Source: Flavobacteriaceae bacterium
GTDB taxonomy: Bacteria > Bacteroidota > Bacteroidia > Flavobacteriales > Flavobacteriaceae
Reading direction: 5' to 3'
DNA: 64,000 bases
Assembly: GCA_009827225.1 (NCBI GenBank)
Contig: WUAI01000007.1
Span: 1 to 64,000, forward strand
Shown: piece by piece, positions 7,953 through 49,478 of the stretch
Position numbering within the stretch: position 1 is the first letter of the stretch
Layout of the letters: the number at the start of each line of letters is the position of its first letter
Made by a program: the position numbers and the translations under genes
Notes under the pieces: model-generated
Database searches by the model: none
The model's input: only the letters and a program-made list of their open reading frames with translations
What the model was told of the DNA's origin: nothing

Positions 7953-8008
7953 CGGTAGCTGTTTAAAAAGCCAATCTAATGTTTCCGAATACGTGATATG
8001 TGAATTGC

Positions 8009-10498: not shown

Positions 10499-10546
10499 AG
10501 CATAAAAATTTATGCTAAAGATACTTAAAAATAGATTCTGAAAGTG

Positions 10547-11365: not shown

Positions 11366-11445
11366 TGAGAAAACTTATTTTTTGATTTCGGCCTTATGTC
11401 TGCGTTAGGGATTGAGGCAGTTACCGTGTAACACCGAAAGCCCGA

Positions 11446-11471
11446 CCCTCCAAAGCTTCAGCGAAGGAGGG
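11446..11471. repeat. Intergenic hairpin CCCTCC/GGAGGG between exbD and tonB
   Basis: Inverted repeat CCCTCC...GGAGGG encloses a smaller nested stem CTTC-AGC-GAAG. There is no T-run on either strand, so it is unlikely to be a simple terminator. It may set different mRNA levels for tonB and exbBD, or be a dispersed palindromic repeat. Confidence 0.5.
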
Positions 11472-11480
11472 AACGCCCAA

Positions 11481-12575: not shown

Positions 12576-12629
12576 AAGTAATTATGATTTTAATGAATAA
12601 CGATATAGGGCTACGGAAATTGCCGTCTC

Positions 12630-14003
12630 TTAGAAAAAGACCGATTTGAAAGCCAGGAATACTGCTGCACCTCCAAGGAAACCAACAAAGGCTAACCAGG
12701 CAATCTTACGCAGATACCAAATGAAATCGATTCTCTCCATTCCCATGGCTGCTACACCCGCAGCAGAACCAATGATAAGCATACTTCCACCGGTACCGGC
12801 AGCATAGGCAATAAAGTGCCATAGGGCCGAATCCATAGGTGAATCGTACATCCCGATAGAGGCCGCAACGAGCGGTACATTATCGATGATCGCAGAGAAT
12901 ACACCCAGTAGCATTACCACTATATCCTGGTTTGGAATGGCTGCCTGAAGCACTTCCGCCAGATAACGCAAGGTACCTACCGGATCACCATTTTCGGCCA
13001 CTCCATACACAAGACTTTCCAGTCCGGCAACAGCCATAAGAATTCCCAGGAAGAAAAGTATACTGGAAATCTCAATTCGTGAAAGGGCTTTATGTGCAGA
13101 ATACAGATGACGCCGTTCCTTACTGAAATCTTCTTCCGGATGAATGTACTCGGACACCAGCCATACAACCCCTAAGGCCAACATCATCCCCATGTAGGGA
13201 GGAAGGTGTGTGAGGGTTTTAAAGACCGGTACAGAAACGATCATCCCTAATCCAAGGAACAACATGGTACGGCTGCTGAGCAGCTTTTCGGCTACAATAT
13301 CTTCGGTGGTATCCACTTCGATGTCACCACGGAAAGGTTTTAGGTAAGTCGCGATGAAGAACGGAATAACAAAACATACGATAGAAGGTAAGATTACATA
13401 CTTTACTAATCCGGCCGCCGAAACTTTACCGGCAATCCAGAGCATCGTTGTGGTAACGTCCCCAATAGGTGACCAGGCACCTCCGGCATTCGCAGCGATT
13501 ACCACCATGGCAGCAAACCATAATCTTTCATTCTTATTTTGAATCAGCTTACGCAATAGGGTCACCAGAACGATGGTCGCCGTTAGGTTGTCGATGATTG
13601 CAGACAGAATAAAAGCAAGAACTCCAATAATCCACAATAGTTTCTTTTTGCTTTTCGTTCGAACAGCTCCTTTCAGTACCTCAAAACCCCTGTGAAGGTC
13701 TATGATCTCTACGATAGTCATCGCTCCGATCAGGAATATCAATATCTCAGAAGTCTTCCCCAAGTGATGAAGCAAGGTGTTCTCAAACCCGTGCATCGCA
13801 TCTTCTCCACCCGTGAGGAAACTGTAAACATGTTCATGCGTATCGATCACATCAAACCATCCGGAGCCAAAACCGATGGCCAATACAGCCCAAATAAGTG
13901 CGGCCATAATTAAGGCAGGCACAGTTTTATCCAGTCGTAATGGATGTTCCAGCGTAATTGATAAATATCCTATTACGAAAATTAAGATGATTATAGACTC
14001 CAT
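12630..14003 (-). CDS. nhaD: Na+/H+ antiporter NhaD
   Basis: 457 residues with about 11-13 membrane helices of the ion transporter superfamily. Typical NhaD segments are visible: ENTLLHHLGKTSEILIFLIGAMTIVEIID, SAIIDNLTATIV, ANAGGAWSPIGDVTTTMLW, SAIIDNVPLVAA and GTGGSMLIIGSAAGVAAMGM. It expels Na+ in exchange for protons, a usual trait of marine Bacteroidota. The ATG is the first in frame; it lies upstream of exbB. Confidence 0.93.
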   Translation of the reverse strand: MESIIILIFVIGYLSITLEHPLRLDKTVPALIMAALIWAVLAIGFGSGWFDVIDTHEHVYSFLTGGEDAMHGFENTLLHHLGKTSEILIFLIGAMTIVEIIDLHRGFEVLKGAVRTKSKKKLLWIIGVLAFILSAIIDNLTATIVLVTLLRKLIQNKNERLWFAAMVVIAANAGGAWSPIGDVTTTMLWIAGKVSAAGLVKYVILPSIVCFVIPFFIATYLKPFRGDIEVDTTEDIVAEKLLSSRTMLFLGLGMIVSVPVFKTLTHLPPYMGMMLALGVVWLVSEYIHPEEDFSKERRHLYSAHKALSRIEISSILFFLGILMAVAGLESLVYGVAENGDPVGTLRYLAEVLQAAIPNQDIVVMLLGVFSAIIDNVPLVAASIGMYDSPMDSALWHFIAYAAGTGGSMLIIGSAAGVAAMGMERIDFIWYLRKIAWLAFVGFLGGAAVFLAFKSVFF

Positions 14004-14071
14004 AAATTAGATGGGATTTGTTGGTAGTTTTTTCAAAGAACTAAAAATAGGATAATTAGATTAAATAACAT

Positions 14072-14098
14072 AAAAAAATCCTGCCGATGAGCAGGATT
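14072..14098 (-). terminator. Terminator after the glutamate dehydrogenase-family gene
   Basis: Stem AATCCTGC/GCAGGATT with a 6-nt loop is followed on the minus strand by seven T residues. It lies just after the dehydrogenase gene in its direction of transcription and separates it from nhaD. Confidence 0.88.
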
Positions 14099-14123
14099 CT
14101 TTGTTCAGTGTTGTAATTTGCAG

Positions 14124-15350
14124 TTACATGATCTTTTTCAGTGCGATCTCGAAAGCCGTCTTACTGATATTTTTTTTGGAGGAATTCTGTTTGAAGGTAT
14201 TTTCGATAGCATCTCTTATGGTATTGGAAGTGTCCCAGAAGATAGCGTCATCGGTCATTTGAACTTTACGCTCCATGAAATAGGCAAAAACCCTCGCCAT
14301 TCCACAGTTCGAAATAAAATCAGGTATCAGGCTTACGCGCTCATCGGTGAATTCCATAATAGGTCCAAAGAATATTTCAGTATCAGCAAAAGGAACGTTA
14401 GCCCCACAACTAATCACTTCAAGGCCAGAATCTATCATGGCCGTAATCTGTTCTTTGGTAATTAGCCTGGATGCGGCACAAGGTGCAAAGATCTCTGTTT
14501 GCAGGTTCCAAATTCGTTGGTTTATTTCATCGAATGGGATCAGGTTTTCTACTTTGAGCGAATTTCCGTTCTTCATGAGGAACATTTCCCGAATCTCCTC
14601 GAAACTAAATCCATCTTCGTTGATAACGCCTCCAACCCGATCGATAATCCCAACGATTTTTGCTCCCATCTGGGCCAAATAATAGGCGGCAGCGGCTCCC
14701 ACATTTCCAAACCCCTGAACCACCGCTCTTTTACCTTCTACATCACCTCCATAAATCTTGTAGTAATGATGCACTGCTTCCGCCACACCATAGCCCGTAA
14801 TCATGTCGGCAACGGTATATTTTCGAGTTACATCCGGTGAAAATTTCGGGTTTTCGATCACTTTGATCACACCCTGTCTGAGTTGTCCTATCCGATTGAT
14901 CTTGTCTGCATCGGTTGGGGTAAAGTGTCCTGTGAAAACCCCTTCCTGTGGATGCCAAACCCCGCTGGCCTCTGTCATTGGGATCACCTCATGGATTTCA
15001 TCCACATTGAGGTCTCCCCCGGTACCGTAATATGCCTTCAATAAAGGAGATACCGCTTTATACCATCGCTCCAGCACTCCCTTTTTACGAGGATCTGCAG
15101 GATCGAAATTGATCCCCGATTTGGCGCCTCCTATATTGGGTCCCGATATCGTAAACTTGACTTCCATCGTTTTGGCGAGAGAGAGTACCTCGTTTTGGTC
15201 CAGCCCCGGACGCATGCGCGTCCCTCCTCCCGCGGCACCTCCACGGAGGGAGTTAATGACGGTCCAACCCTCGGCTTCCGTTTCCGGATCGTTCCAGTGA
15301 AACACAATTTCCGGTGCTTTTTCTTCGTATTTTTTGAGTAGTTCTTTCAT
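14124..15350 (-). CDS. Glu/Leu/Phe/Val dehydrogenase
   Basis: 408 residues from the chosen ATG (MKELLKKYEEKAPEIVFHW). The catalytic GGAKSGI motif, the preceding GGTRMRPG region, the GTGGDLNVDEIHEVIPMTE segment and a Rossmann motif (VVQGFGNVGAAAAYYLAQ) identify an amino-acid dehydrogenase of the glutamate/leucine family, which deaminates an amino acid with NAD(P)+; glutamate or leucine cannot be decided by eye. The frame is open 17 codons further up, but a TATCTTTG promoter box lies inside that extension, so the downstream ATG is the likely start. Confidence 0.9.
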   Translation of the reverse strand: MKELLKKYEEKAPEIVFHWNDPETEAEGWTVINSLRGGAAGGGTRMRPGLDQNEVLSLAKTMEVKFTISGPNIGGAKSGINFDPADPRKKGVLERWYKAVSPLLKAYYGTGGDLNVDEIHEVIPMTEASGVWHPQEGVFTGHFTPTDADKINRIGQLRQGVIKVIENPKFSPDVTRKYTVADMITGYGVAEAVHHYYKIYGGDVEGKRAVVQGFGNVGAAAAYYLAQMGAKIVGIIDRVGGVINEDGFSFEEIREMFLMKNGNSLKVENLIPFDEINQRIWNLQTEIFAPCAASRLITKEQITAMIDSGLEVISCGANVPFADTEIFFGPIMEFTDERVSLIPDFISNCGMARVFAYFMERKVQMTDDAIFWDTSNTIRDAIENTFKQNSSKKNISKTAFEIALKKIM

Positions 15351-15368
15351 TTCTGGAGTAATGGTGGG

Positions 15369-15376
15369 CAAAGATA
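15369..15376 (-). promoter_or_regulatory. -7 promoter element of the Glu/Leu dehydrogenase gene
   Basis: TATCTTTG on the minus strand fits the Bacteroidota -7 consensus TAnnTTTG exactly and lies 18 bp upstream of the chosen ATG. It decides the start codon, because the longer open frame would begin upstream of the transcript. No convincing -33 TTG is visible. Confidence 0.65.
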
Positions 15377-15451
15377 AAAAAGTTGCTACGTAATAAGCCA
15401 TGTTACACGGAAAGAAATAAACAACCTAATTCCCGTTTTTGAGAAGTTATT

Positions 15452-15480
15452 TTTGTAATTTAACAGGTGTAATATCTTTG
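15452..15480 (+). promoter_or_regulatory. Promoter of the FG-GAP-like T9SS protein gene
   Basis: TTTG (15452-15455) and TATCTTTG (15473-15480) are spaced 17 bp apart, close to the Bacteroidota -33/-7 pattern. A 5' leader of about 55 nt would follow. Confidence 0.5.
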
Positions 15481-15543
15481 TTTTCAGTTTTTTAAGTCAA
15501 TTTTTATACTGAAACAACTGTAGAACAATCAATCATTTTTCTG

Positions 15544-16689
15544 ATGAAATCAATAGTGACCCTCTGGTTTATTTTACCTCTTTCTATCATTTCTGTTTAT
15601 TCCCAACCATTTCAAGAAGCAGCCATTAATCCCTATGGTCTGATAACGGAAGGAGCACGCTCCAGTCCTGCCCTTATAGATATTGACAATGATGAGGATT
15701 TGGATCTTTTTACAGGATACCAAAACGGAAACTTCGGATTTTATGAGAATATTGGTGATCCAGGACTGCCTAATTTCGGAGTATTGCAAATAAACTTCTT
15801 TGGACTAACTTCCCTCGCAGATAACACTACGCCCTTCCCGGTGGACCTCGATAACGATGGCGATTATGATATGTTCGCAGGAAGTAGCAGCGGTGTCCGA
15901 TATTTCGAAAACACTGGAAATACAAATGTCGCTTCTTATGATTTACAACCCGTGAACCCCTTCGGAATTATAAGTCCGACGGGAATTAGTAAACCTGCCC
16001 TGGTCGATATTGATAGTGATAACGACATGGATTTGTTTATCGGCGCCTCGGATGGGAACACCTATTATTACGAAAATACCGGCACTGCGAACAATCCGTC
16101 GTTCGCGGCTCAATTTGAAAATCCCTTTGGGATTACAGACATTGGAGAACGGGCAGCACCCGCTTTTGTGGATATTGATGAGGATCTGGACATGGATCTT
16201 TTCATCGGTTCACAATCCCCGGGAGAATTTTTCTTTTTTGAGAATATTGGAACAGTAAACGCTCCATCTTTTGACACCGCAGTTATAAACCCGTTTAATC
16301 TTGATAACGTAGGGCAAGATGCGAAACCTTTCTTTGCAGACTTGGACAACGATACTGATTCCGATTTAATCTCAGGAAACGCACTCGGAGAGTTTTATTA
16401 TTTCCAAAATTTGTTCACCATCCTGGGAAGCACCTCCGTTGAAACAAAGTTGGCCACCATATATCCAAATCCGTTTGTGGAATCAGTCACCATAAAACTT
16501 CACAGGTCTTTAGAAGAAAGTTCAAAATTGACCATTCGGTCGATTGATGGAAGGCTGATCCGCAGCGTTGATTTCCCTATAGGTTCCGATGAATTGGTTA
16601 TTGACCGGGGAGCTATCGCCAATGGAATATATTTTATCTTTTTAGAAGACAGTGACTCGAGGTTCCTGGGTAAAGTGGTAGCTCATTAA
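15544..16689 (+). CDS. Secreted FG-GAP/VCBS-like repeat protein with T9SS sorting tail
   Basis: 381 residues. A signal peptide (cleavage near VYSQ-PF) is followed by five repeats of about 55-60 residues, each with an NPFG-type element and an acidic calcium-loop-like core (DIDNDEDLDLF, DLDNDGDYDMF, DIDSDNDMDLF, DIDEDLDMDLF, DLDNDTDSDL), as in FG-GAP/VCBS propeller blades. The final 80 residues (LATIYPNPFVESVTIKL ... GAIANGIYFIFLED) form a type A sorting domain. Likely a surface or secreted calcium-binding protein of unknown ligand. It converges with anmK, and the two genes overlap by 4 bp at their ends. Confidence 0.88.
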   Translation: MKSIVTLWFILPLSIISVYSQPFQEAAINPYGLITEGARSSPALIDIDNDEDLDLFTGYQNGNFGFYENIGDPGLPNFGVLQINFFGLTSLADNTTPFPVDLDNDGDYDMFAGSSSGVRYFENTGNTNVASYDLQPVNPFGIISPTGISKPALVDIDSDNDMDLFIGASDGNTYYYENTGTANNPSFAAQFENPFGITDIGERAAPAFVDIDEDLDMDLFIGSQSPGEFFFFENIGTVNAPSFDTAVINPFNLDNVGQDAKPFFADLDNDTDSDLISGNALGEFYYFQNLFTILGSTSVETKLATIYPNPFVESVTIKLHRSLEESSKLTIRSIDGRLIRSVDFPIGSDELVIDRGAIANGIYFIFLEDSDSRFLGKVVAH

Positions 16690-17753
16690 TCTTTCCGAAA
16701 TACTTTACCACTGGAATGATCCCTGGAAGCGCCTGTAACACTCGCCAGACAGTTGGTTTCATTCCGAAGCCTTAATACCCCCAGCAAACCAAAAATCAGG
16801 GCTTCTTTATACTCTATAATATCAGATGTTGGATGGATTATTTCTATCGCCTTGCTTTTCCGAATTTTTGAAATGAGAAACTTGTTGAAAGCACCACCTC
16901 CGGTGATCAATATTGATGTTCCTGATTTAAAGTTTCCAGCTATTTGCATAGCAGCATGTTCGGTAAATGTCGCAATTTTGTTTTCTACTGAACTTTCCGA
17001 AGCATTCAAAACCGGCCAAATTTTTTCATTTACCCATTCCAAACCTAAGGATTTAGGAGGTTTGGATTGATAATAAGGCAGTCGGTTCAATTCATTCAGT
17101 AATTCAATATCCATTATTCCGGTAGCTGCAATCCTGCCATCTTCATCAAAAGGCTTGCCTAATTTTTCTGATAACGCATTCAGTACAATATTAACCGGAC
17201 AGATATCATAGGCAATTCGTTCCTCTCCTCTCTCGAAAGAAACATTCGCAAACCCACCCAAATTCAAACAGGCATCGTAATCTCCGAAAAGTAGTCGGTC
17301 TCCAATAGGAACCAATGGTGCCCCCTGGCCGCCTAATTCAACATCCTGAACGCGAAAATCACAAACCACCTTCAAACCAATTGCTCGGGCAATTTCCGGA
17401 AGATTCCCCACCTGAAGTGTCAATCCCTTCTCCGGCTGATGCAAAATGGTATGGCCGTGGCTGCAAACCGCATCAATATCTTTAAGCTGATGTCTTTGAA
17501 TGAAATCGGATATCATCCCTCCCAGCAATTGGGTATACTCTTTATCCAGGGTGGTCAACCTACCCTCAGAAAAGAATACCGCCTCGCGCAATTTCCGCAT
17601 CCACTCCTCGGAGTAGGGAACCGTTTCCGTAACACCAATATTGAACTCCCAACCATTCCCCTCGGAATAATACAGGTTACATTCCGCCAGATCCACCCCA
17701 TCCAGAGACGTTCCGCTCATCACTCCAATAACCCGATATTCGTTTTGCATCAT
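16686..17753 (-). CDS. anmK: Anhydro-N-acetylmuramic acid kinase AnmK
   Basis: 355 residues. Diagnostic elements are VIGVMSGTSLDGVDLA at the N-terminus (ATP-binding phosphate loop), SHGHTILHQPE, the GQGAPLVPIGDRLLF motif, LNLGGFANVS and the C-terminal ILITGGGAFN. AnmK phosphorylates anhydroMurNAc while opening its 1,6-anhydro ring to give MurNAc-6-phosphate, a cytosolic step of peptidoglycan recycling. It is divergent from the acyl-CoA dehydrogenase gene. Confidence 0.93.
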   Translation of the reverse strand: MMQNEYRVIGVMSGTSLDGVDLAECNLYYSEGNGWEFNIGVTETVPYSEEWMRKLREAVFFSEGRLTTLDKEYTQLLGGMISDFIQRHQLKDIDAVCSHGHTILHQPEKGLTLQVGNLPEIARAIGLKVVCDFRVQDVELGGQGAPLVPIGDRLLFGDYDACLNLGGFANVSFERGEERIAYDICPVNIVLNALSEKLGKPFDEDGRIAATGIMDIELLNELNRLPYYQSKPPKSLGLEWVNEKIWPVLNASESSVENKIATFTEHAAMQIAGNFKSGTSILITGGGAFNKFLISKIRKSKAIEIIHPTSDIIEYKEALIFGLLGVLRLRNETNCLASVTGASRDHSSGKVFRKD

Positions 17754-17776
17754 TTCAGTAAAATTAACACCATTTA

Positions 17777-17807
17777 TTGAATAACTGCAGCTAAAAAATT
17801 ATCTTTG
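17777..17807 (+). promoter_or_regulatory. Promoter of the acyl-CoA dehydrogenase gene
   Basis: TTG (17777-17779) and TATCTTTG (17800-17807) are 20 bp apart, an exact Bacteroidota -33/-7 arrangement in the divergent space with anmK. Confidence 0.75.
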
Positions 17808-17848
17808 CACCTCATTTCGAAAACGATTTAGATAAAAGGATTTTTACT

Positions 17849-18991
17849 ATGGATTTTAGCCTTTCCGAAGAACATTTAATGATACGTGATGCCGCCCGTG
17901 ATTTTGCAAAGACAGAATTGCTTCCCGGGGTTATTGAAAGAGATAACAAACAGGAATTCCCAACCGAACAGGTCAAAAAAATGGGAGAACTTGGTTTCCT
18001 GGGAATGATGGTCGACCCCAAATACGGAGGTGGCGGTATGGATACTGTTTCGTATGTGCTGGCTATGGAGGAATTGAGCAAAGTGGATGCCTCTTCATCG
18101 GTGATCGTTTCGGTAAATAACTCATTGGTGTGCTGGGGACTCGAAACCTACGGCACTGAAGCGCAAAAGGAAAAATATCTTACTAAACTCGCCACCGGTG
18201 AATCCATCGGGGCATTTTGTTTAAGTGAACCTGAGGCAGGAAGTGATGCCACTTCACAAAGAACCACCGCGATTGACAAAGGAGATCACTACATCCTCAA
18301 CGGTACCAAAAACTGGATCACCAATGGAGGAAGTGCTGATTACTACCTGGTGATCGCACAAACCGATCGGGACAAAGGACACCGGGGCATTAATGCCTTT
18401 ATCGTAGAAAAATCCTGGGAAGGATTCGAGGTTGGGCCTAAGGAAGACAAGCTCGGTATCCGTGGAAGTGATACGCACACCTTAAACTTCAACGACGTAA
18501 AAGTTCCAAAAGAATATAGAATAGGTGAAGATGGTTTCGGCTTTAAGTTTGCCATGAAAACCTTAAGCGGAGGAAGAATCGGGATTGCAGCTCAGGCCCT
18601 TGGGATTGCTTCCGGAGCCTACGAACTTGCCAAAGAATATTCCAAGATCCGTAAAGCCTTTGGCACTGAAATTTGCAACCACCAGGCGATTGCTTTTAAA
18701 CTTGCCGACATGCATACCGAAATTGAGGCTGCCAGGCACCTGGTGATCAAAGCAGCCTGGGATAAGGACAACGGGAATAACTACGATCTCAGCGGAGCAA
18801 TGGCCAAACTATATGCAAGTAGAGTGGCCATGGAAACTACGGTGGAGGCTGTTCAGATCCATGGAGGAAATGGCTTCGTAAAAGAATACCATGTGGAACG
18901 CTTGATGCGTGATGCCAAGATCACCCAGATCTATGAGGGTACTTCCGAAATCCAAAAAATGGTCATCTCCAGAGGTATACTGAAAGACTAA
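17849..18991 (+). CDS. Acyl-CoA dehydrogenase
   Basis: 380 residues, the usual length for the short/medium-chain family. FAD- and substrate-binding signatures are present: GAFCLSEPEAGSDATSQRT, NGTKNWITNGG, and the C-terminal QIHGGNGFVKEYHVERLMRD followed by KITQIYEGTSEIQ, where the Glu of YEGT is the catalytic base in short-chain and butyryl-type enzymes. It introduces the alpha-beta double bond in fatty-acyl-CoA or branched acyl-CoA and passes electrons to ETF. Chain-length preference cannot be read. Single-gene unit with its own promoter and terminator. Confidence 0.93.
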   Translation: MDFSLSEEHLMIRDAARDFAKTELLPGVIERDNKQEFPTEQVKKMGELGFLGMMVDPKYGGGGMDTVSYVLAMEELSKVDASSSVIVSVNNSLVCWGLETYGTEAQKEKYLTKLATGESIGAFCLSEPEAGSDATSQRTTAIDKGDHYILNGTKNWITNGGSADYYLVIAQTDRDKGHRGINAFIVEKSWEGFEVGPKEDKLGIRGSDTHTLNFNDVKVPKEYRIGEDGFGFKFAMKTLSGGRIGIAAQALGIASGAYELAKEYSKIRKAFGTEICNHQAIAFKLADMHTEIEAARHLVIKAAWDKDNGNNYDLSGAMAKLYASRVAMETTVEAVQIHGGNGFVKEYHVERLMRDAKITQIYEGTSEIQKMVISRGILKD

Positions 18992-19010
18992 AACTTATAG
19001 AACAATCAGT

Positions 19011-19034
19011 ACCCGGTCTAGGCCGGGTTTTTTT
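19011..19034 (+). terminator. Terminator after the acyl-CoA dehydrogenase gene
   Basis: Stem ACCCGG/CCGGGT with a 6-nt loop leads into a run of seven T residues. Confidence 0.88.
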
Positions 19035-19044
19035 ATGGCGATCC

Positions 19045-19070
19045 GTGAACCTTGTTTTATACAGGTTCAC
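19045..19070. repeat. Inverted repeat in a geneless stretch
   Basis: GTGAACCT and AGGTTCAC form a perfect 8-bp stem with a 10-nt loop and no T-run. It is followed by GC-richer, repeat-like sequence (CCGGTAGGGG and a doubled CTATCG) and then AT-rich DNA up to the next gene. The whole 19035-19279 stretch shows no coding frame that looks real; it may be a dispersed repeat or a decayed insertion. Confidence 0.5.
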
Positions 19071-19279
19071 GACCGCGCTATTCGCTCCTACTCCGGTAGG
19101 GGTATCCGCTGCTATCGCTATCGCAGTGTAACATTTCGATGGCACGTCAGACTAATACTACACACTTTTAGAGCAGCGCCAACTAAATTTCAGAAATTGA
19201 GTTTCCCAACTCGATTTTTTTACCGAAATTGATACTCCAAAATTTCAAAAAAATAATAACCATTTAAATAGCCATACCT

Positions 19280-20629
19280 ATGTCTGATGATTTTGATTTA
19301 CTAGAAACCGATTCTTCTTCTGAACAAACAGAAAAAGTAGAAGTTAATTGGGGAAAAGCTGTGGACCAGATGAAGTCCAAACTGGCGCAGGAAGACGATC
19401 CTGAAATGCGCCAGAAAATATTAAATGCCACTCTGGACGATGTGGTAGGCATGGCTGAGAAAGATAGAAAGTCCTTATTGGAGGCAATCAAAGACCTCAC
19501 CGATTACCAGGACGAAGTAGGAATTATATTCGAGAAGTTTTCTACCCTTAACGCCGACGAGCAAAAGGTGATCGATAATGCCCAAAAAGCTTTGGACAAA
19601 GCACGACTCGAACTTGAGGAGGCCGAAAATGTTAAAGACAACTGGTGGAACAATCTGTGGGGACGTAAATCCCGCATTAAAAAGCGTCAGGCGGAACTCG
19701 AAGCAGCACAGAAGGCCCGCGAGGGTGCAGACCTGAAAGCGAAGCAAATGTTCCAGGAGCGTATTGAAAATGCAGATGTACAAACTTTACTTGCGGAACT
19801 TTCTTATAAGAGCCAGGCGGCAGTAACCCGTCTTAAAAATCGGGAAGTGGAGATCAAAGAAGTGGAAGACAAGCTTCAGGTTGCCATAGTGGAAGCCAGT
19901 AAGAATCATACCAAGGCTCTGGAGAAAAAGAAAGAAACCGAAGATAAACTGGAAGAGCAATATTCCTTGCTGAAACAAGCAAGACAGGCCCTCGAAGAAA
20001 TTGCCGATAAGCAATCCACCGAATACAGTGAAGCCATTGGTAAGATCACGGAGATCGAACAAAAAGTAGAGGAACTGGAAGGATTGAAGAATGCCTACAC
20101 CACTTTGGCGGCAAGTAAAGACAGCTTTGTTCACAAGCATAACCTTACGATCAAGGTATTGACATCCTTGCGAAGTAATTTGCAGACACATCGTGCGAAA
20201 CTTAAGAGTGACACCGACGAGCGATTGAAGTACTACGACGGTTATGTAGTGGCATTAAAGGCCAGAACCGATCAGGAGTTTGCGGCTATCCTCGAGCATC
20301 TTGGTGTAAAAACCGACGAGCATATCGGTCAAACCCTGGCTTCCATGCATTCGGCCAGCGCAAGAGCACGTCAGGAAATGATGGACAATATCCCGGTTCA
20401 CGAGAAAGTGATGCAAGGGGTGTACAGCAGCTATGCCGAGTCGCTTCAGGAAATTCGTGAGAAAGACGCCGAAATCCAAAAAGACTTCGCCAATCGGTAT
20501 GGGATCGATATGAAAGAAATTTTTGAAGAATTCTATGCGACCGACGGTAATGCACCATCCGGAGATGGAGAACCCTCGGAAGCACCTGAAAGTCCGGAAC
20601 CACCTGCCGAAGACGACTTGTTAGGATAA
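19280..20629 (+). CDS. Long coiled-coil protein, first gene of the AAA+ operon
   Basis: 449 residues, soluble, strongly acidic at both ends (start MSDDFDLLETDSSSEQ; end with many Pro/Glu/Asp and EDDLLG). Nearly all of residues 60-420 is helical heptad-like sequence rich in Ala, Lys, Glu and Leu, with one odd Trp-rich segment, DNWWNNLWGRKSR (about 118-130). I do not recognise a named family; the build resembles scaffold or substrate proteins that work with AAA+ ATPases and, in outline only, TelA-type stress proteins. Direction and spacing suggest it leads the following operon, from which it is separated only by the small GIY-YIG insert. Confidence 0.8.
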   Translation: MSDDFDLLETDSSSEQTEKVEVNWGKAVDQMKSKLAQEDDPEMRQKILNATLDDVVGMAEKDRKSLLEAIKDLTDYQDEVGIIFEKFSTLNADEQKVIDNAQKALDKARLELEEAENVKDNWWNNLWGRKSRIKKRQAELEAAQKAREGADLKAKQMFQERIENADVQTLLAELSYKSQAAVTRLKNREVEIKEVEDKLQVAIVEASKNHTKALEKKKETEDKLEEQYSLLKQARQALEEIADKQSTEYSEAIGKITEIEQKVEELEGLKNAYTTLAASKDSFVHKHNLTIKVLTSLRSNLQTHRAKLKSDTDERLKYYDGYVVALKARTDQEFAAILEHLGVKTDEHIGQTLASMHSASARARQEMMDNIPVHEKVMQGVYSSYAESLQEIREKDAEIQKDFANRYGIDMKEIFEEFYATDGNAPSGDGEPSEAPESPEPPAEDDLLG

Positions 20630-20651
20630 TTTATTTAGAAACAAATGTGGC

Positions 20652-21039
20652 TGTCAGGTCGAGCGCAGTCGAGACCTATTTGGACGAAATCATTATGAAG
20701 AACTATTTCATCTATATTCTTGAATGTTCTGATGGTTTACTCTACACAGGTATTACTAACGACTTAACTCGTAGGATTGAAGAACACGAACTTGGCAGAA
20801 ACACAAACTGCTTTACTTTTAAGCGAAGGCCTATAAAGTTAATTTTTCACCAAACCTTTAATCAAGTCGAACAGGCAATTTACTTTGAAAAGAAAATAAA
20901 GAAATGGAGCGCTGCAAAGAAAAGAGCTTTGTATGAGGGACAAATCAATATGCTGAAAATTTTAGCCGAATGCCGAAATTTTACGCACCACAAATATTGT
21001 CCAACAAAAGAGGAGGTCTCGACTGCGCTCGACCAGACA
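20652..21039. mobile_element. GIY-YIG nuclease gene enclosed by 26-bp inverted repeats
   Basis: The left end (20652-20677) and right end (21014-21039) are inverted copies identical at 25 of 26 positions; the core is GGTCGAGCGCAGTCGAGACC. Each copy is itself imperfectly self-complementary (GGTC/GACC). The right copy encodes the last residues of the nuclease. The unit lies between the first gene and the otherwise gapless remainder of an operon. This looks like a small inserted element, with the nuclease a natural candidate for spreading its palindromic ends. No target duplication is evident by eye. Confidence 0.6.
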
Positions 21040-21051
21040 ATTAAAACTTAA
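20695..21051 (+). CDS. GIY-YIG nuclease-family protein
   Basis: 118 residues from the ATG at MKNYFIYILEC. The family signatures are visible: YIYIL-type first strand (FIYILECSDGLLYTGIT), catalytic Arg in NDLTRRIEEH, and the metal-binding Glu in QAIYFEKKIKKW. Small single-domain members of this type (UPF0213/URI-like) are very common in Bacteroidota and uncharacterised. A GTG 16 codons earlier would start inside the left inverted repeat and is unlikely. The C-terminal residues STALDQ are encoded by the right inverted repeat. The gene interrupts an operon to which it seems unrelated. Confidence 0.88.
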   Translation: MKNYFIYILECSDGLLYTGITNDLTRRIEEHELGRNTNCFTFKRRPIKLIFHQTFNQVEQAIYFEKKIKKWSAAKKRALYEGQINMLKILAECRNFTHHKYCPTKEEVSTALDQTIKT

Positions 21052-21060
21052 TTAAAACTC

Positions 21061-22113
21061 ATGTCCATCAACCAAATTGTGACACCGCTCGACAGTGCCG
21101 TTCTCGACAACAAGGAACAGTACGAGGTGTACTTTAAAATAGTGAACCATGCCTTTGAGCATCTGGTGAGCACCATGGTGGAGCATGAGATCTGCAATTC
21201 GCTGGAATTGTCATTTTTCAAACAATATTGTGAGCTTCTTACCTATTCCCTGGAAGCATTCCGCGTAAAATACCTGTACGATGAAGAGGAAAAGATGAAG
21301 ATCGATCTTACCGAGTCCGGTTTCCCGAATTATCTCGAATTTCGATACCTCATCAACGACCTGGCGCTGAAGCAAGAGCACATTGCTAAACTTCCCGATC
21401 CTGAAAAGTTGAAAGAAGAATTCCTGGAAAGTCTGATGAAATACAAAGAACCTGTTTCTAAAAGAACACTCGAACAGGCAGCATCCATCGTGTATTACAC
21501 CTCGGTAGAGAAAAATTTCATTTTTAGAAAGTTTGTCCAGGGCAAGATCATTAAAATTGAGAATAATAAAGAGGCTCCCTACCTCGTAAGCTGGTCCTTT
21601 TATGATGTTACCTATAACCGCCCGTTTATTTGTTTTATGTATTTCGACCTGCACAAGACCAGCCTGGCCGAATATACCAAGGATATCTATGAAGTTCTCG
21701 AGCGCGTAGCCGATAGAGACATGAGCATGGACATGATGGCTTATGCCATCGATAAAAAGTTACCCAAGCTTTTGCCGAAAAGCCTCAGAAAGATCGACCT
21801 GGGGCCGCTGCATAATGTATTCGCGAAAGATGCACTGGAAATTACCCATATTATCCTCGAGGGCATTATCAACAAGAATTTAAAACTATCCGAGTTCGCT
21901 ACTTCTCTTTCGATTGAAGAAATACGATCCAAAGATCAATTCACCGAAGGAAGTTTTTTCAACAAACAGATATTACAGGTCTGGGAGGTTGAAAAACCGG
22001 AAACATATTTATTCACCTCTCACAGGGTGATTCAGGTTCTTTACGATAAGATTCCTGAAAGCATCAATAGATTGACAAAAGCACCCATTGAAATACCTGC
22101 ATTAAAACTCTAA
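21061..22113 (+). CDS. Uncharacterised cytosolic protein of the AAA+ operon
   Basis: 350 residues, no signal peptide or membrane segment, mixed helix/strand composition, acidic and leucine-rich. I do not recognise a domain. The stop codon lies one base before the AAA+ ATPase ATG, so the two are translationally coupled. It may be an adaptor or regulator of the ATPase; this is inferred only from the coupling. Confidence 0.78.
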   Translation: MSINQIVTPLDSAVLDNKEQYEVYFKIVNHAFEHLVSTMVEHEICNSLELSFFKQYCELLTYSLEAFRVKYLYDEEEKMKIDLTESGFPNYLEFRYLINDLALKQEHIAKLPDPEKLKEEFLESLMKYKEPVSKRTLEQAASIVYYTSVEKNFIFRKFVQGKIIKIENNKEAPYLVSWSFYDVTYNRPFICFMYFDLHKTSLAEYTKDIYEVLERVADRDMSMDMMAYAIDKKLPKLLPKSLRKIDLGPLHNVFAKDALEITHIILEGIINKNLKLSEFATSLSIEEIRSKDQFTEGSFFNKQILQVWEVEKPETYLFTSHRVIQVLYDKIPESINRLTKAPIEIPALKL

Positions 22114-45155: not shown

Positions 45156-46844
45156 ATGCAACTTTCTGAACAGGAAATCGTACGAAGAGAAAAACTGGCA
45201 CAACTGCGCAGTTTAGGTATCGACCCGTATCCACCGGAATTGTTCCTGGTAGATCATACCTCTGCACAAATTAAACAGGACTTTTCAGAAGGTAAAAAGG
45301 TGAAGATCGCAGGAAGGCTGATGTCGAGAAGAATCCAGGGGAAAGCATCTTTCGCCGAGCTGCAGGATAGTGAAGGGCGCATACAAGTATATTTCAATCG
45401 AGATGAAATTTGCCCGGGTGAAGACAAGACATTGTACAACGATGTGTACAAGAAGTTACTGGACATAGGGGATTTTGTAGGTGTGGAAGGAGAATTGTTT
45501 ACCACCCAGGTGGGCGAAAAGACCGTCATGGTAAAGGACTTCAAATTGTTGTCCAAAGCATTGCGTCCTTTGCCTTTGCCTAAGACCGATAGTGAGGGAA
45601 ATACCTTTGACGAATTCAATGATCCTGAATTGCGTTATCGACAACGTTACGCGGATTTGGTGGTAAACCCGAAGGTGAAAGACACCTTTGTAAAGCGTAC
45701 AAAAATTACGAATACCATTCGTGAATTTTATAACGAGATGGGGTTCCTGGAAGTGGAAACTCCCATTTTACAACCTATTCCCGGAGGAGCGGCGGCACGT
45801 CCGTTTGTGACGCATCATAATGCCCTAAACATTCCCTTATATCTCCGTATTGCCAACGAATTGTATCTGAAAAGACTCATCGTTGGAGGATTTGACGGGG
45901 TGTATGAGTTCGCGAAAGACTTCAGAAATGAAGGAATGGACCGTACCCACAACCCGGAATTTACAGTGATGGAAATGTATGCCGCTTACAAGGACTACCA
46001 TTGGATGATGGACACCACAGAACAATTACTGGAAAAAGTGGCAGTGGCCCTGCATGGTACCTCTGAAGTGCCTTTTGGGGAACATGTGATCGATTATAAA
46101 GCGCCTTATGAGCGAATTGGAATCCTCGATGCGATCAAAGAGCACACGGGGATCGACCTCTACGGAAAAGATGAGGACGAGGTAAGAAGCGCTTGTAAAG
46201 AATTGGGCGTTGAAGTGGATGAAACCTTCGGAATTGGAAAGATGATCGACGAGATCTTTGGAGAAAAATGCGAGCACCATTATATCCAGCCTACCTTTAT
46301 CATGGACCACCCGGTGGAGATGAGTCCGCTCACCAAAAAACACCGTACCAAAGAAGGACTCACCGAGCGTTTCGAACTGTTGGTAAACGGAAAAGAATTG
46401 GCGAATGCTTATACCGAGTTGAACGATCCTATCGATCAGCGGGAGCGGTTTGAGGATCAATTAAAATTATCCGAAAAAGGAGACGACGAGGCCATGTTCA
46501 TCGACCAGGATTTCCTGCGAGCATTGGAATATGGGATGCCTCCTACTTCAGGGATCGGGATTGGAATCGACCGTTTGACCATGTTTATGACCAACAACGA
46601 GTCGATCCAGGAAGTGTTGTTTTTTCCGCAGATGAAACCGGAACGCGAGCAGGTAGCATTGAACGACGAAGAGAAAGCCGTGTTCAATTTGCTAAAGGCC
46701 AACTCTCCCATGGACCTCAACGACTTGAAATCCCAAAGCGGATTGTCCAACAAAAAATGGGACAAGACCATTAAGCACTTGACCAAGAACAATCTGGCGA
46801 AGGTGCATAAAACAGACGAAGGCCTGACGGTAGAAGTGGTTTAA
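45156..46844 (+). CDS. lysS: Lysine--tRNA ligase (class II)
   Basis: 562 residues from MQLSEQEIVRREKLAQLRSLGIDPYPPE. An OB-fold anticodon-binding domain (about 55-150) precedes the class II catalytic core with motif 2 (FRNEGMDRTHNPEFTVMEMY) and motif 3 (GIGIGIDRLTMFMTNN). A C-terminal extension of about 65 residues beyond motif 3 (EEKAVFNLLKANSPMDLNDLKSQSG...) is predicted to be a small helical, winged-helix-like appendix, which I recall as common in Bacteroidota LysS. Confidence 0.95.
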   Translation: MQLSEQEIVRREKLAQLRSLGIDPYPPELFLVDHTSAQIKQDFSEGKKVKIAGRLMSRRIQGKASFAELQDSEGRIQVYFNRDEICPGEDKTLYNDVYKKLLDIGDFVGVEGELFTTQVGEKTVMVKDFKLLSKALRPLPLPKTDSEGNTFDEFNDPELRYRQRYADLVVNPKVKDTFVKRTKITNTIREFYNEMGFLEVETPILQPIPGGAAARPFVTHHNALNIPLYLRIANELYLKRLIVGGFDGVYEFAKDFRNEGMDRTHNPEFTVMEMYAAYKDYHWMMDTTEQLLEKVAVALHGTSEVPFGEHVIDYKAPYERIGILDAIKEHTGIDLYGKDEDEVRSACKELGVEVDETFGIGKMIDEIFGEKCEHHYIQPTFIMDHPVEMSPLTKKHRTKEGLTERFELLVNGKELANAYTELNDPIDQRERFEDQLKLSEKGDDEAMFIDQDFLRALEYGMPPTSGIGIGIDRLTMFMTNNESIQEVLFFPQMKPEREQVALNDEEKAVFNLLKANSPMDLNDLKSQSGLSNKKWDKTIKHLTKNNLAKVHKTDEGLTVEVV

Positions 46845-46849
46845 CCCAA

Positions 46850-46907
46850 TGTCACTCAGAGCACAGCGCAGCGTCTCTTGTCACTCAGAGCAACGCGATG
46901 AGTCTCT
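46850..46907. repeat. Two tandem 29-bp repeats downstream of lysS
   Basis: Copies at 46850-46878 and 46879-46907 share TGTCACTCAGAGCA...GTCTCT, with an altered middle (CAGCGCAGC against ACGCGATGA). The motif resembles dispersed repeats I recall from many Bacteroidota intergenic regions. It lies between the lysS stop codon and terminator. Confidence 0.7.
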
Positions 46908-46915
46908 AAAAAACC

Positions 46916-46947
46916 AAGGAACCACGTCAATGTGGTTCCTTTTTTTG
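46916..46947 (+). terminator. Terminator of lysS
   Basis: Stem AGGAACCAC/GTGGTTCCT with a 6-nt loop followed by seven T residues. Confidence 0.9.
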
Positions 46948-47036
46948 TTTTATATCATTGTAATTGTGTTAATAAGTCCTCGTACTTTTTTGAAAGTATG
47001 GATGGGATAACGACTATTTTTATAGGGATATAACGA

Positions 47037-47045
47037 GTTATGTGC
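47037..47045 (+). other. Cassette 1 start box (GTTATGTGC)
   Basis: GTTATGTGC is the exact reverse complement of the box GCACATAAC at the end of the same cassette. It is followed by AATTTAAAA, nearly as in cassette 2. The preceding ATAACGAG recalls the ATACGAG before the cassette 2 box, so a partial recombination site or the primary insertion site probably lies to the left. The bases between the lysS terminator and this box otherwise show nothing recognisable. Confidence 0.6.
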
Positions 47046-47067
47046 AATTTAAAAGAATACTCCTATA

Positions 47068-47787
47068 ATGCTCGAAGAATTAATTAAAGACGAAGCAAAT
47101 AAATTCTATAACTATTCGGAATGGCAACAATATGATAATACACCATCTGGATTTAAAGATGCCTTAGAACTTCAATTGTATAATCACAATAGTTCTACTA
47201 GTAAACTCTTCTACATATATGAGATTCTTCGATTAATAAGAGAAGAATACAATGATCATCTAAAGTCTTGTCGATACAAGGACGAACCTATTAAATGTGA
47301 TCAGAATAAGACATGGTTAAAAATGATTTACTATACTGAACAAATTATTGAAGATTTAAATCCGCAATTTGATTTTCAGATTTTACGTCCTGAATTAAAC
47401 ACTGACTTAATACACGAAAATTTAAAGAAACTATCTGACTATCCTGAGTCGGCTAAATTATACCAATCTGCATTGGACAAATTAAACGAGGGAATTAATG
47501 AACGGAACGTACTCGACGACGCAAGATTGTCTTATGAATTGCTTCTAAAGTCTGTGCTATCAAACAATAAATCCTTAGAAAATCAAAGCTCCGAATTAGG
47601 TAAGTATCTAAAACAACAAAACGTCTCTGCTGAATGCAGGAATATGTTCCAAACCCTAAACAATTATTTTCAGAATTATCAAAATACATATGTAAAGCAT
47701 AATGACAAAGTACTAACTAAAGAAGTCGACTTGATTGTAAATTTGACTTCATCATTAATAAATTTTATAATAAACAACAGCACATAA
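47068..47787 (+). CDS. Cassette gene 1: HEPN-like helical protein, possible abortive-infection type
   Basis: 239 residues, soluble, helical, AT-rich in codon use. The C-terminal 85 residues (LDDARLSYELLLKSVLSNNKS ... LGKYLKQQN ... LNNYFQNYQNTYVKHND ... VNLTSSLINFIIN) follow the pattern of the helical Abi C-terminal/HEPN-like domain, but where active HEPN RNases have Arg-x4-6-His, here the sequence is Q-N-T-Y-V-K-H, lacking the Arg. I name the family only tentatively. The stop codon lies inside the cassette's end box. The neighbour is a SEFIR/TIR-like gene, so a defence role is plausible. Confidence 0.7.
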   Translation: MLEELIKDEANKFYNYSEWQQYDNTPSGFKDALELQLYNHNSSTSKLFYIYEILRLIREEYNDHLKSCRYKDEPIKCDQNKTWLKMIYYTEQIIEDLNPQFDFQILRPELNTDLIHENLKKLSDYPESAKLYQSALDKLNEGINERNVLDDARLSYELLLKSVLSNNKSLENQSSELGKYLKQQNVSAECRNMFQTLNNYFQNYQNTYVKHNDKVLTKEVDLIVNLTSSLINFIINNST

Positions 47788-47916
47788 CAACGCATAACGC
47801 CCATCGCTTCGGATTTTCCTATCTGAAAATCCTAGCTAGGCACAACTCTCCAGGATAAATTCTATAACTTAGTAAAGATATATCGCAACGATGCGTTATA
47901 CGAGACCGTTGTGTGC
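47780..47916 (+). other. attC-like recombination site between the two cassettes
   Basis: 137-bp imperfect palindrome. Outer boxes ACAACG/CGTTGT, inner boxes ATAACG/CGTTAT and CATCG/CGATG pair across a central region, with 1 nt unpaired on the left and 7 nt (ACGAGAC) on the right, which resembles the extrahelical bases and asymmetry of integron attC sites. The centre holds its own hairpin GGATTTTC-(6 nt)-GAAAATCC. Length is similar to chromosomal integron repeats. Not proven to recombine. Confidence 0.6.
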
Positions 47917-47935
47917 AATTTTAAAATACAATAAT

Positions 47936-48673
47936 ATGAGTATCCCAAAAGTTTTTATTTCTTATTCTCATGATTCAATTACTCATAAAAAGTGGGTGCT
48001 TGATCTAGCAACAAGGATGCGAAATAATGGAATTGATGCAATAATTGACCAATGGGAACTTCAATTAGGTGATGATTTACCACATTTTATGGAAACTCAT
48101 CTCGCTAATTCAGATAAGATCATTATGGTCTGTACAGAGAATTATGTAGAAAAAGCAAATAATGGAACAGGTGGTGTCGGATACGAAAAAATGATTATAA
48201 CTTCCAATCTACTTAAAAAGATAGATGAGAATAAAATCATTCCAATCATCAGGCAGGTATCTACTACAGATTTGCCAACATTTTTAAAAACTAAGCTCTA
48301 TATCAATTTTTCAAAGGTTAGTGAATTTGAGTTTAATTTTGATGAACTAATTAGAACTATTCATGGAAGTCCAATTTATAAAAAACCACCTGTCGGAAAT
48401 AACCCTTTTGCCAAAATAATGGATGATTCGAATTTAAAAGTCCATGATTCTCTGTTAGATTATATGACTGCTGTAGTACAAATATATAATTCAAGTTCAG
48501 GGATCTATATTTCCAAAGTAGCAATTAAAAACAAATTAAAACTCTCAAGAATAATGCTAGAACACTTAGAGGAAAAAGCCTTGGAAGCCAATTATATTAA
48601 GGCGGATGGAATAACCGATGTCACGCTAACTAAAGCCGGTAAAACTTATGCAATTAATAACAATATAGAATAA
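47936..48673 (+). CDS. Cassette gene 2: SEFIR/TIR-like protein with C-terminal winged helix
   Basis: 245 residues from MSIPKVFISYSHDS. Residues 5-140 form a SEFIR/TIR-like domain: FISYSHDSITHKKWVLDLATRM, DQWELQLGDDLPHFME, IIMVCTENYVEKA and GGVGYEKMII, where the Glu sits at the position of the NADase Glu of active TIR domains. Residues 165-245 look like a winged helix (SGIYISKVAIKNKLKLSRIMLEHLEEKALEANYI...VTLTKAGKTYA). Proteins with such domains often act in anti-phage defence by consuming NAD+. An ATG 15 codons earlier lies within the recombination site and is unlikely to be used. Confidence 0.87.
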   Translation: MSIPKVFISYSHDSITHKKWVLDLATRMRNNGIDAIIDQWELQLGDDLPHFMETHLANSDKIIMVCTENYVEKANNGTGGVGYEKMIITSNLLKKIDENKIIPIIRQVSTTDLPTFLKTKLYINFSKVSEFEFNFDELIRTIHGSPIYKKPPVGNNPFAKIMDDSNLKVHDSLLDYMTAVVQIYNSSSGIYISKVAIKNKLKLSRIMLEHLEEKALEANYIKADGITDVTLTKAGKTYAINNNIE

Positions 48674-48677
48674 AACA

Positions 48678-48703
48678 GCACACAACAACGCATAACGCCC
48701 ATC
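48678..48703 (+). other. Truncated attC-like site at the array end
   Basis: GCACACAAC followed by AACGCATAACGCCCATC, identical for 18-20 bases to the left half of the inter-cassette site; the matching right half is absent and chromosome-type sequence (sulfotransferase gene) begins within 30 bp. The array end therefore appears cut or the last half-site was lost. Confidence 0.6.
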
Positions 48704-48731
48704 TATTCGAAATTTTCAACTATCAAAGTTC

Positions 48732-49478
48732 ATGCCCGCAAAACTAGTCCGAAAGATCAATCGAAAGCTTAAGTCCATTTTAAGCAATAGCTCCACAAGC
48801 TCACCCGCCGGGAAGTTTGTGGTCATCACCCGATCCCGGACCGGTTCCAATTTATTGATCTCCCTCCTGGACTCCCATGACGACATTGTGGCCTTTGGTG
48901 AGAAATTCAATCGGCTGGAGGGAAGAAGTTGCCAATCGGTGTATGATGAGATATTTCGAAATAAACCCAACAAACAAGTAGGGTTTAAAATATTCTATTA
49001 CCATCCGCTGGACTCTGAAGACAAATCTATTTGGGACTTGATACAAAACGATCCCCACATTAAGATCATTCACCTTATTCGTGAAAATCTTTTGCGGGTT
49101 CATATTTCCAGGCTCATCGCGGGTAAGACCGACGTCTGGTCTTCCAAGAATAAAAAAGACATCAACCCAGACAGCAAGAAAGTAGAAATCAACCCCACCG
49201 AACTTCTCAATGACATCCGGGTGACACACAATCATATCAAAGCTGCACGCGAGACTTTTAACCAGCATTCAATATTGGAGGTGACTTATGAAGATCTCAT
49301 AGACCCGAGTCGGGAGGTTTTGAATGACATTCAGAAATTCCTGGATGTTGCGCCTAAAAACCTTGCCAGTGAATTAAGGCGTCAAAATCCGGAAGCCCTT
49401 TCCCAACTCATCTCAAATTATCAGGAAATTCATGATCTCCTGGCCGGCACCGATTACGAATTTATGCTGGAGGATTGA
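48732..49478 (+). CDS. Sulfotransferase-family protein
   Basis: 248 residues, no signal peptide. The PAPS 5'-phosphosulfate loop is visible (VVITRSRTGSNLLISLLDSH, about 30-49) as is the 3'-phosphate motif (IIHLIRENLLRVHISRL, about 112-128). It should transfer sulfate from PAPS to a carbohydrate or lipid; similar enzymes are often found in exopolysaccharide or lipid-modification loci. The MBOAT and SGNH-like genes downstream support a polysaccharide role. Its 5' end abuts the cassette array. Confidence 0.87.
   Translation: MPAKLVRKINRKLKSILSNSSTSSPAGKFVVITRSRTGSNLLISLLDSHDDIVAFGEKFNRLEGRSCQSVYDEIFRNKPNKQVGFKIFYYHPLDSEDKSIWDLIQNDPHIKIIHLIRENLLRVHISRLIAGKTDVWSSKNKKDINPDSKKVEINPTELLNDIRVTHNHIKAARETFNQHSILEVTYEDLIDPSREVLNDIQKFLDVAPKNLASELRRQNPEALSQLISNYQEIHDLLAGTDYEFMLED

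Follow-up and report, generated by a model that had tools for sequence, protein, structure and literature searches.

The window analyzed here, a 64,000-nucleotide stretch of a draft genome of a Flavobacteriaceae bacterium (contig WUAI01000007.1, positions 1 to 64,000), carries behind the lysS gene two consecutive genes that appear to be the cargo of two integron-like cassettes, preceded by a site resembling attI and separated by a palindrome resembling attC (Table 1). From the comparison of this locus with the rest of the genome and with related genomes, we propose that it belongs to an integron-like system of Bacteroidota, the integrase of which differs in kind from the classical integron integrase IntI. 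Cassette 1 opens with the box GTTATGTGC (47037-47045) and closes with GCACATAAC (47780-47788), and cassette 2 opens with GTTGTGTGC (47908-47916) and closes with GCACACAAC (48678-48686). Within each unit the two boxes are exact reverse complements (9/9), whereas the match across the junction of the two cassettes is 8/9. Both the position of these boxes and the presence of an imperfect palindrome of attC-like structure between the genes, as given in a preliminary description of the window, were thus borne out; the attI-like site ahead of cassette 1, and the fact that only half of the second attC is present, are additions to it.

Table 1. Coordinates of the cassette locus in the window
Feature	Position	Strand	Remarks
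attI-like site	47000..47039	+	GGGATA...GATATAACGAGTT; no integrase upstream; position weight matrix (PWM) score 31.5 bits
Cassette 1 start box (R' arm)	47037..47050	+	GTT-N6-C-A-A
Cassette 1, body and own attC	47037..47907	+	delimited by self-matched ends
Cassette 1 gene, 239 amino acids (aa), phage-defence candidate PDC-S32	47068..47787	+	PADLOC E 4.1e-46
attC-like site between the cassettes (R''-L''...L'-R'), 137-bp imperfect palindrome	47780..47916	+	
R'' box of cassette 1	47780..47788	+	GCACATAAC
L'' arm, two extra bases CC	47791..47806	+	read directly; C41 site of same type aligned
L' arm	47889..47902	+	read directly; C41 site of same type aligned
Cassette 2 start box (R' arm)	47908..47921	+	
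Cassette 2, body and truncated attC	47908..48720	+	right limit approximate
Cassette 2 gene, 245 aa, TIR/SEFIR protein, bSEFIR phage-defence type	47936..48673	+	PADLOC E 1.7e-82
Last attC, left half only	48678..~48715	+	83% direct repeat of 47766-47817

The left half of the attC-like site, GCACAYAACAACGCATAACGCC, occurs at the ends of both units and at no other place of the window when up to 3 mismatches are allowed (expected number 0.00). For the last attC, no ACCGTT right end was found within 230 nucleotides (nt). An Rfam scan of 46800-48900 gave no match up to an E value of 1, and the exact attC half had no match on the genome's contigs. A covariance model scored the site at 47780-47916 with 137.8 bits, but this site is a training row of that model.

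Arrays of the same kind are present elsewhere in the genome, which is a draft of 80 contigs with an estimated completeness of 99.3%. The motif CAACGCATAACG was found at 10 exact places, distributed over contigs C35, C41, C58, C74 and C57 (the last being the contig of the window), and direct reading of these places revealed arrays with cassette-specific boxes. In total, 15 self-matched cassettes were retained, namely, seven on C41, three on C58, two on C74, one on C35 and the two of the window. They came from 21 candidates collected by an exact 8-base self-match, six of which (two on C39, one on C74 and three on C41) were dropped because no attC-like sequence lay behind them or because they repeated another candidate. 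A covariance model built from eight of the genome's own sites matched 17 places at E values up to 1, the eight training rows included. Contigs C46 and C44, which had given initial matches, showed no array on reading, and a scan of C65 returned no site. On C39 (G000, approximately 6942-21155), five weak matches to the covariance model lie in a region with no credible self-matched cassette.

To quantify the self-match, we detected sites in this genome and its relatives by the pairing of the L stem, by AAC followed by A[ACT]N[AG], and by GTT, at site lengths of 112-125 and 160-212; the variable boxes were not used. This yielded 275 sites in 38 of 48 sources, defining 224 cassette intervals, with site lengths peaking, inside the allowed ranges, at 117-119 and 179-185. 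At positions 4 to 9, the start and end boxes agreed fully (6/6) in 179 of the 224 intervals and at 5/6 or better in 192, whereas the same positions agreed fully across the junctions in only 9 of 224, and shuffled partners agreed at approximately 0.3 per position beyond position 4. The 192 cassettes contain 94 distinct 6-mers at the six variable positions. All pairs were found along the arrays (275 sites, 224 pairs and 192 self-matched cassettes on the forward strand, compared to nine sites and no pair on the opposite strand). No pair was detected on either strand of the rest of the window, where a single stray site was seen, or at 13 unrelated loci of the genome. At the window locus itself the detector reported one site and no pair, since the start of the first cassette coincides with attI and the final attC is incomplete; direct inspection was used for both window cassettes. 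Among integrase loci of other genomes, a self-matched cassette lay downstream in 23 of 40, and in 20 of the 29 for which more than 8 kb of downstream sequence was available. Named loci with such cassettes include Zunongwangia, Algibacter, Winogradskyella and Rufibacter.

A classical integron behaved likewise. Among the 32 cassettes (42 sites) detected in Vibrio atypicus, 23 had boxes agreeing at 6/6 within the cassette, and agreement across the junction was seen in none of the 32, so that self-match is a general property of integrons. The Vibrio match decays after position 9. In the arrays described here, position 11 is A in all 192 start boxes and C in 171 of the end boxes, and positions 12 to 14 pair again. 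An inner GTT tried as the Vibrio cassette start gave 45 intervals with only two matching at 6/6 and was discarded. In the preliminary description, the deviation of the box from GTTRRRY had been listed as a point against integron cassettes. This deviation does not discriminate: GTTRRRY is found in 5 of the 32 Vibrio starts and in 16 of the 192 analyzed here. Under a strict GTTRRRY rule, no arrays were found at loci L165-L201.

The arrays are associated with an integrase gene. The array of C41 is immediately preceded by a tyrosine recombinase gene that is oriented towards it (382 aa when read from the GTG start chosen here; open frame, 407). A second copy on C35 (L027, 1144-2287), likewise ahead of an array, is split by a frame change into frames of 221 and 194 aa. 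Behind both integrase stops lies GATTATATAACAAGTT, followed by the first cassette, which on C41 matches its own end over 10 bases. In other genomes, 30 of 40 integrase loci carry TATAA-N(2-4)-GTT at a distance of 12 to 143 nt past the stop codon of the gene. As on C41 and C35, the putative attI thus adjoins the integrase gene, with cassettes inserted at its GTT. At four loci of a more distant integrase clade (L091, L137, L138 and L101), we observed a palindrome before the first GTT, differing in sequence between the genomes and followed by TATCCAATTGTT or a similar sequence; this is possibly a variant attI.

A weight matrix was built from 24 attI sites (22 from relatives plus those of C41 and C35), all selected for TATAAC-NN-GTT. 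It scored 47000-47039 of the window with 31.5 bits, the next best place reaching 8.5; true attI sites left out singly scored between 14.7 and 39.1 bits, with one at 1.1. When only the first 27 bases, which lie outside the selected core, were considered, the site ranked 3 of 127,920 window positions. Given that the attI appears genuine by sequence and that lysS occupies the place of the integrase upstream of it, we interpret the window locus not as a target hit by chance but as a probable decayed platform, comprising an attI, two captured cassettes with defence genes and a final, broken attC, from which the integrase would have been lost. This fits the earlier suggestion of an array separated from its integrase, such genes being present on C41 and C35. 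In the nearest relative (G399; LysS identity, 94%), both the cassettes and the boxes are missing, as is the sulfotransferase gene that adjoins them in the window. No clean empty site behind lysS was found among the genus-mates, five of the seven genomes with a LysS match having been inspected; G397, G156, G402 and G400 carry other DNA there, and G398 had no LysS match.

The sequence of the integrase sets it apart from IntI, a feature that the preliminary description had no view of. Residues R224, K249, H313, R316, H339 and Y348, which we take to be the catalytic ones, are among the invariant positions of 21 aligned integrases. In the alignment to VchIntIA (2a3v), chain residues 199-248, corresponding to the IntI-specific additional domain (the I2 or patch III region), have no counterpart, 5 residues standing in their place. 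Consistently, the distance from the catalytic lysine to the HxxRH motif is 64 aa here, 64 to 65 in three further family sequences and 64 to 69 in 24 named or plasmid-borne ones, compared to 106 to 107 in eight IntI sequences, the row labels being our own and the IntI label having been assigned with this distance in view. It is 71 to 72 in 11 of the 13 sequences that we took as XerC/D type. Likeness to Xer recombinases is seen in the family score for XerA_Arch (NF040815; 211 bits, below the cutoff of 220) and in the best solved structures, which were XerA 5hxy and 4a8e, followed by IntI (query, a model of Zunongwangia L127 with a predicted local distance difference test [pLDDT] score of 81 and a predicted template-modelling [pTM] score of 0.52). 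At an E value of 1e-45, the family was detected in 247 of 397 sampled family-level genomes and in 166 of 237 genera. Named integrases nearest to the family alignment are from Flavobacteriaceae, e.g., Mesonia and Zunongwangia, and two Chryseobacterium plasmids carry a family integrase at 39%. On these plasmids (L202, NZ_CP041688.1; L203, NZ_CP094530.1), the integrase lies beside ParA with differing genes behind it, a plasmid-borne version. Many family integrases lie near contig ends, a pattern that assemblies interrupted at repeated attC sites would produce, and arrays are probably under-represented in draft genomes.

The integrase furthermore has an extra N-terminal domain of about 75 to 90 aa, which when modelled alone reached a pLDDT of 86 and a pTM of 0.73. 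Its structural neighbours were UvsW (1rif; Z 7.5; root mean square deviation [rmsd] 3.0 over 71 residues) and XPB (2fwr; Z 7.3; rmsd 1.9 over 58 residues), both below the trust level of the tool. No credible sequence relative was found in the PDB and no Foldseek match at an E value of 0.001, the HARP domain of SMARCAL1 appearing at rank 35 with an E value of 2.6. Among 14 members, Pfam matched HARP in two (best E value, 0.0015) and DUF5710 in three (best, 8.9e-5). The N-terminal domains of UvsW, XPB and HARP are related branched-DNA-binding domains, and since these three are related, their weak matches point the same way. The modelled domain may thus bear a faint resemblance to branched-DNA-binding domains.

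Which strand of the attC-like sites is folded was assessed by means of wobble pairs, using, for strand bias only, a symmetric detector that treats both wobble types alike. At positions 4 to 14 of the R arm in 134 cassettes, we counted 136 G.T pairs on the bottom strand and none on the top strand (25 and none when position 11 was omitted). In the L stem, bottom-strand G.T pairs occupy positions L7 and L12 in fractions of 0.72 and 0.73 of 220 sites, compared to 0.00 for top-strand pairs at these positions and at most 0.04 anywhere in the first 16 L-stem positions. Since the wobble pairs of the R arm are G.T in the bottom strand only, this strand seems to be the folded one. When self-closed sites 112-125 nt long were folded computationally, the bottom strand was more stable than the top strand in 126 of 127 cases, and the self-closed form was more stable than the junction form in 120 of 127. 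The sites thus combine AAC/GTT ends, R''-L'' and L'-R' arms, an unpaired spacer and a computed bottom-strand fold, as known from attC. In classical attC sites the strand is chosen mainly by an extrahelical base (PMC2727003; here and below, citations refer to the available parts of the sources). The sites described here have two extra bases in L'' for the genome's own A-type sites and none, or one on the other arm, in other sites (128 left and 221 right over the aligned stems). The conserved G.T pairs are a candidate for taking over the role of the extrahelical base in strand choice.

The closeness of the enzyme to XerA, in family score as well as in fold, and its lack of the region by which IntI acts on single-stranded DNA would also fit an integrase that acts on attC as double-stranded DNA, like Xer on dif, the hairpin being a relic or serving another purpose. 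We regard this as improbable, though the least so among the alternatives. The R''/R' pairing and the wobble bias are what selection on a folded bottom strand would produce, and a two-strand exchange with homology in the overlap should not tolerate the differing R boxes of neighbouring cassettes. Xer/dif systems have a single dif per replicon and a housekeeping role; here, there are many sites per genome, and the distribution is accessory (247/397).

Less likely still is that the units are ordinary integron cassettes (a cluster of attC sites lacking an integrase, CALIN) mobilised by a classical IntI hidden in an assembly gap. The architecture is indeed the same as that of the Vibrio array, and the genome is in 80 pieces. 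However, in this nearly complete genome no gene exceeded the cutoff of TIGR02249, the integron integrase family, for which the integrase itself scored 206.4 bits (cutoff, 265). Instead, the integrases that abut attI and the arrays have no additional domain and do not group with IntI. In an unrooted tree of 78 sequences, the eight IntI sequences formed one clade (100/99) with no family member inside, and 28 family sequences formed another (99/98) within a wider group of 56 (91/93, below the starred level of support); the family label as such, which was also given to sequences lacking checked arrays, does not correspond to one clade (six changes).

Comparison of the loci between genomes indicated that the cassettes move as units. 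We obtained 61 alignments of at least 350 bases, a set that includes integrase genes, mobile elements, two related plasmids and the genome's own C35 and C41; 45 were listed and nine were read at base level. In three of them, L077/L132 (99.6% over 924 nt), L093/L096 (99.1% over 3914 nt) and L090/L127 (96% over 694 nt), one whole cassette is shared, and the flanks diverge at the GTT of its start and at that of the next cassette; in L096 and L127 the shared cassette lies at attI, its partner copy lying behind an attC. L085/L150 (80%) shows a similar, less clear unit pattern. In L095/L109 and L102/L202, the shared stretch runs from GTT to the AAC of R'' and the attC bodies differ; in L079/L105 and L079/L129, it starts just before the preceding attC. 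In L079/L105 and L095/L109, the relatedness of the cassette bodies stops at the R'' box and the attC bodies beyond it differ, suggesting that attC and gene may be exchanged separately. In L074/L102, the common sequence is an element bounded by inverted ends that directly follows the box. This element of about 1.3 kb (84%) lies right behind a start box at L074 88-1418 and L102 8101-9432 and 12262-13582, as if it targeted cassette starts or attI.

The cassette cargo is diverse. Relatives' cassettes contain 149 open reading frames (ORFs) of at least 90 aa, 100 of which were scanned. These matched 71 Pfam families, several of them restriction enzymes; three families were found in two proteins each and all others in a single protein. 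PADLOC assigned 92 families to the same 100 proteins, the 25 listed ones in one member each. Of 157 longest ORFs, 150 had the orientation of their array, and 29 of 186 cassettes had no ORF of 60 aa. In the window, the protein of cassette 1 matched no Pfam or NCBIfam family at an E value of 0.001 and that of cassette 2 matched Pfam TIR_2 and SEFIR; in combination with the PADLOC assignments (Table 1), both genes are probable anti-phage genes.

Two further explanations are very unlikely. Dispersed palindromic repeats, of the repetitive extragenic palindrome (REP) or miniature inverted-repeat transposable element (MITE) type, lying by chance between unrelated genes that are no units would account for sites that are palindromic and repeated, yet not for variable boxes that match over the gene rather than over the palindrome (179 vs 9 of 224) or for gene-plus-site units common to different genomes with breakpoints at GTT. 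Small one-gene transposons with terminal inverted repeats would account for inverted ends of 9 to 14 bp on each unit, yet these ends vary by unit, and the units follow one another in a single orientation after an integrase gene and its recurrent attI. In addition, rve, matched by one of the 100 cassette proteins of relatives, is the single transposase-type family among the 25 Pfam families listed, and at an E value of 0.001 no transposase family was matched by the protein of either window cassette.

Several observations weigh against an integron-like system as proposed here. As many as 32 of the 224 intervals show no self-match at 5/6, 9 of the 29 integrase loci with more than 8 kb downstream show no self-matched cassette, and only 10 of 42 named loci (some of them distant or on short contigs) do so; relatives' arrays were sought solely in the DNA downstream of integrases. 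A 9-mer test of the first cassette was passed in 14 of 25 cases, compared to 54 of 870 random starts, and on C35 the self-match of the first cassette extends over 6 bases only. The attI motif as written is missing at 10 of 40 integrase loci. Within the genus, three of nine genomes match, namely, the present one and two in which the match is partial and contains stops. As to the strand, the symmetric detector is noisy (418 sites, compared to 251 in shuffled DNA; 6/6 within 120 of 311 intervals and across seven); over whole aligned L stems, at sites picked by a score favouring bottom wobble, the bias is not exclusive (762 bottom, 175 top); and the junction site alone folds moderately (z, -2.8 bottom and -3.3 top). 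Missing cassettes or attI at some integrase loci may be due to decay, divergence or detector limits.

With these points weighed, we consider it likely, at a rough probability of 0.87, that the locus in the window is a platform, now decayed, of a Bacteroidota integron-like system, platforms with an integrase being present elsewhere in the genome, on C41 with one intact reading frame and on C35 with a split one. This reading is built on sequence comparison: on the self-match, the strand asymmetry, the attI, the association of arrays with an integrase that has no IntI additional domain, and the exchange of whole units. The cassette interpretation of the preliminary description is supported by the first and last of these and by the palindrome, and its prediction that other copies of the boxes would bracket single genes and covary held in the genome itself as well as in relatives.

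In the mechanism that we envisage, the bottom strand of attC would fold into a hairpin with two paired arms, R''/R' (about 14 bp) and L''/L', and an unpaired spacer (3 by 6 nt) between them. The XerA-like tyrosine recombinase with its extra N-terminal domain would bind both arms and exchange a strand at the presumed cleavage point, GTT, whereby the cassette would become linked either to another attC or to the attI that directly follows the integrase gene (GATATAAC-NN-GTT). Passage through a circle that is closed at the unit's own site would explain why the two ends of each unit still match. The working would thus be integron-like, yet the feature that defines integron integrases is absent. More tentatively, at somewhat less than even odds, capture of cassettes by a folded single strand would have arisen or survived without the I2 helix. 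The G.T pairs would then set the strand, the bottom one being stable and the top one carrying A.C mismatches, a branched-DNA-binding domain of the UvsW/XPB/HARP type at the N terminus would read the hairpin, and the platforms would represent a second, very common integron lineage of Bacteroidota and a reservoir of phage defence.

Chromosomal integrons of the Vibrio superintegron type share with this system one-direction arrays of mostly single-gene cassettes, self-matched ends, and attC sites with AAC/GTT ends, R and L arms and an unpaired spacer. Unlike theirs, the integrase here has no IntI additional domain, falls outside the IntI clade, carries the extra N-terminal domain, and is co-oriented with the array, its 3' end lying at attI; unlike in Vibrio, the R arm pairs again at 12 to 14 with an A at 11, and G.T pairs are conserved at L7 and L12. 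Reverse-orientation integrons of spirochaetes and planctomycetes have a true IntI that is co-oriented with the array, and the present system resembles them in this orientation and differs in the missing additional domain. XerA, XerC and XerD resemble the integrase in fold and sequence and differ from it in having no such N-terminal domain and in not being tied to attI and arrays but to a single dif. Integrons also have an attI at the platform and use the bottom strand (PMC2727003). Integration of the CTX phage via XerC is comparable in that a recombinase without I2 acts on a single-stranded hairpin, which is what we infer here; CTX, however, has no integrase of its own and a stem that mimics double-stranded dif (PMC4792948, PMC7790495), in contrast to the platform of integrase, attI and array.

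In the available text of PMC7790495, I2 and single-strand recombination are confined to integron integrases, and deletion of I2 abolishes IntI1 function. Bacteroidota or the Bacteroidetes/Chlorobi group have been counted among the integron lineages (PMC2426708, PMC8618304, PMC9668308) and the latter group among the carriers of intI (PMC2426708); for Bacteroidetes proper, the part of PMC9024848 available names one complete integron, in Salinibacter ruber M1. Parts of the system may have been noticed before, in view of these statements of PMC2426708 and of the remark that the insertion is "not fully conserved" in an integron-like subgroup (PMC8138268). The NCBI name "site-specific tyrosine recombinase/integron integrase" on some family proteins likewise hints at a link to integrons. 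By title or abstract start, no description of the system was found among the listed papers on integrons and Bacteroidota, subscription journals and preprints being outside the scope of the search, which fits the earlier guess of an undescribed cassette family.

Two observations concern the flanks of the locus. Directly behind the broken attC, a gene starting at 48732 looks sulfotransferase-like by eye. Behind lysS, at 46850-46907, lies a tandem pair of a 29-base repeat (TGTCACTCAGAGC...GTCTCT, 83%).

Taken together, our comparisons suggest a second, widespread gene-capture system in Bacteroidota, with integron-like cassettes and a different kind of integrase. A platform without I2 would, if true, reveal how the reaction can proceed or originate in the absence of this helix. 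Searches that require IntI would then miss a large reservoir of cassettes, the integrase family being present in 166 of 237 sampled genera, and the evolution of single-strand cassette recombination would become a directly testable question.

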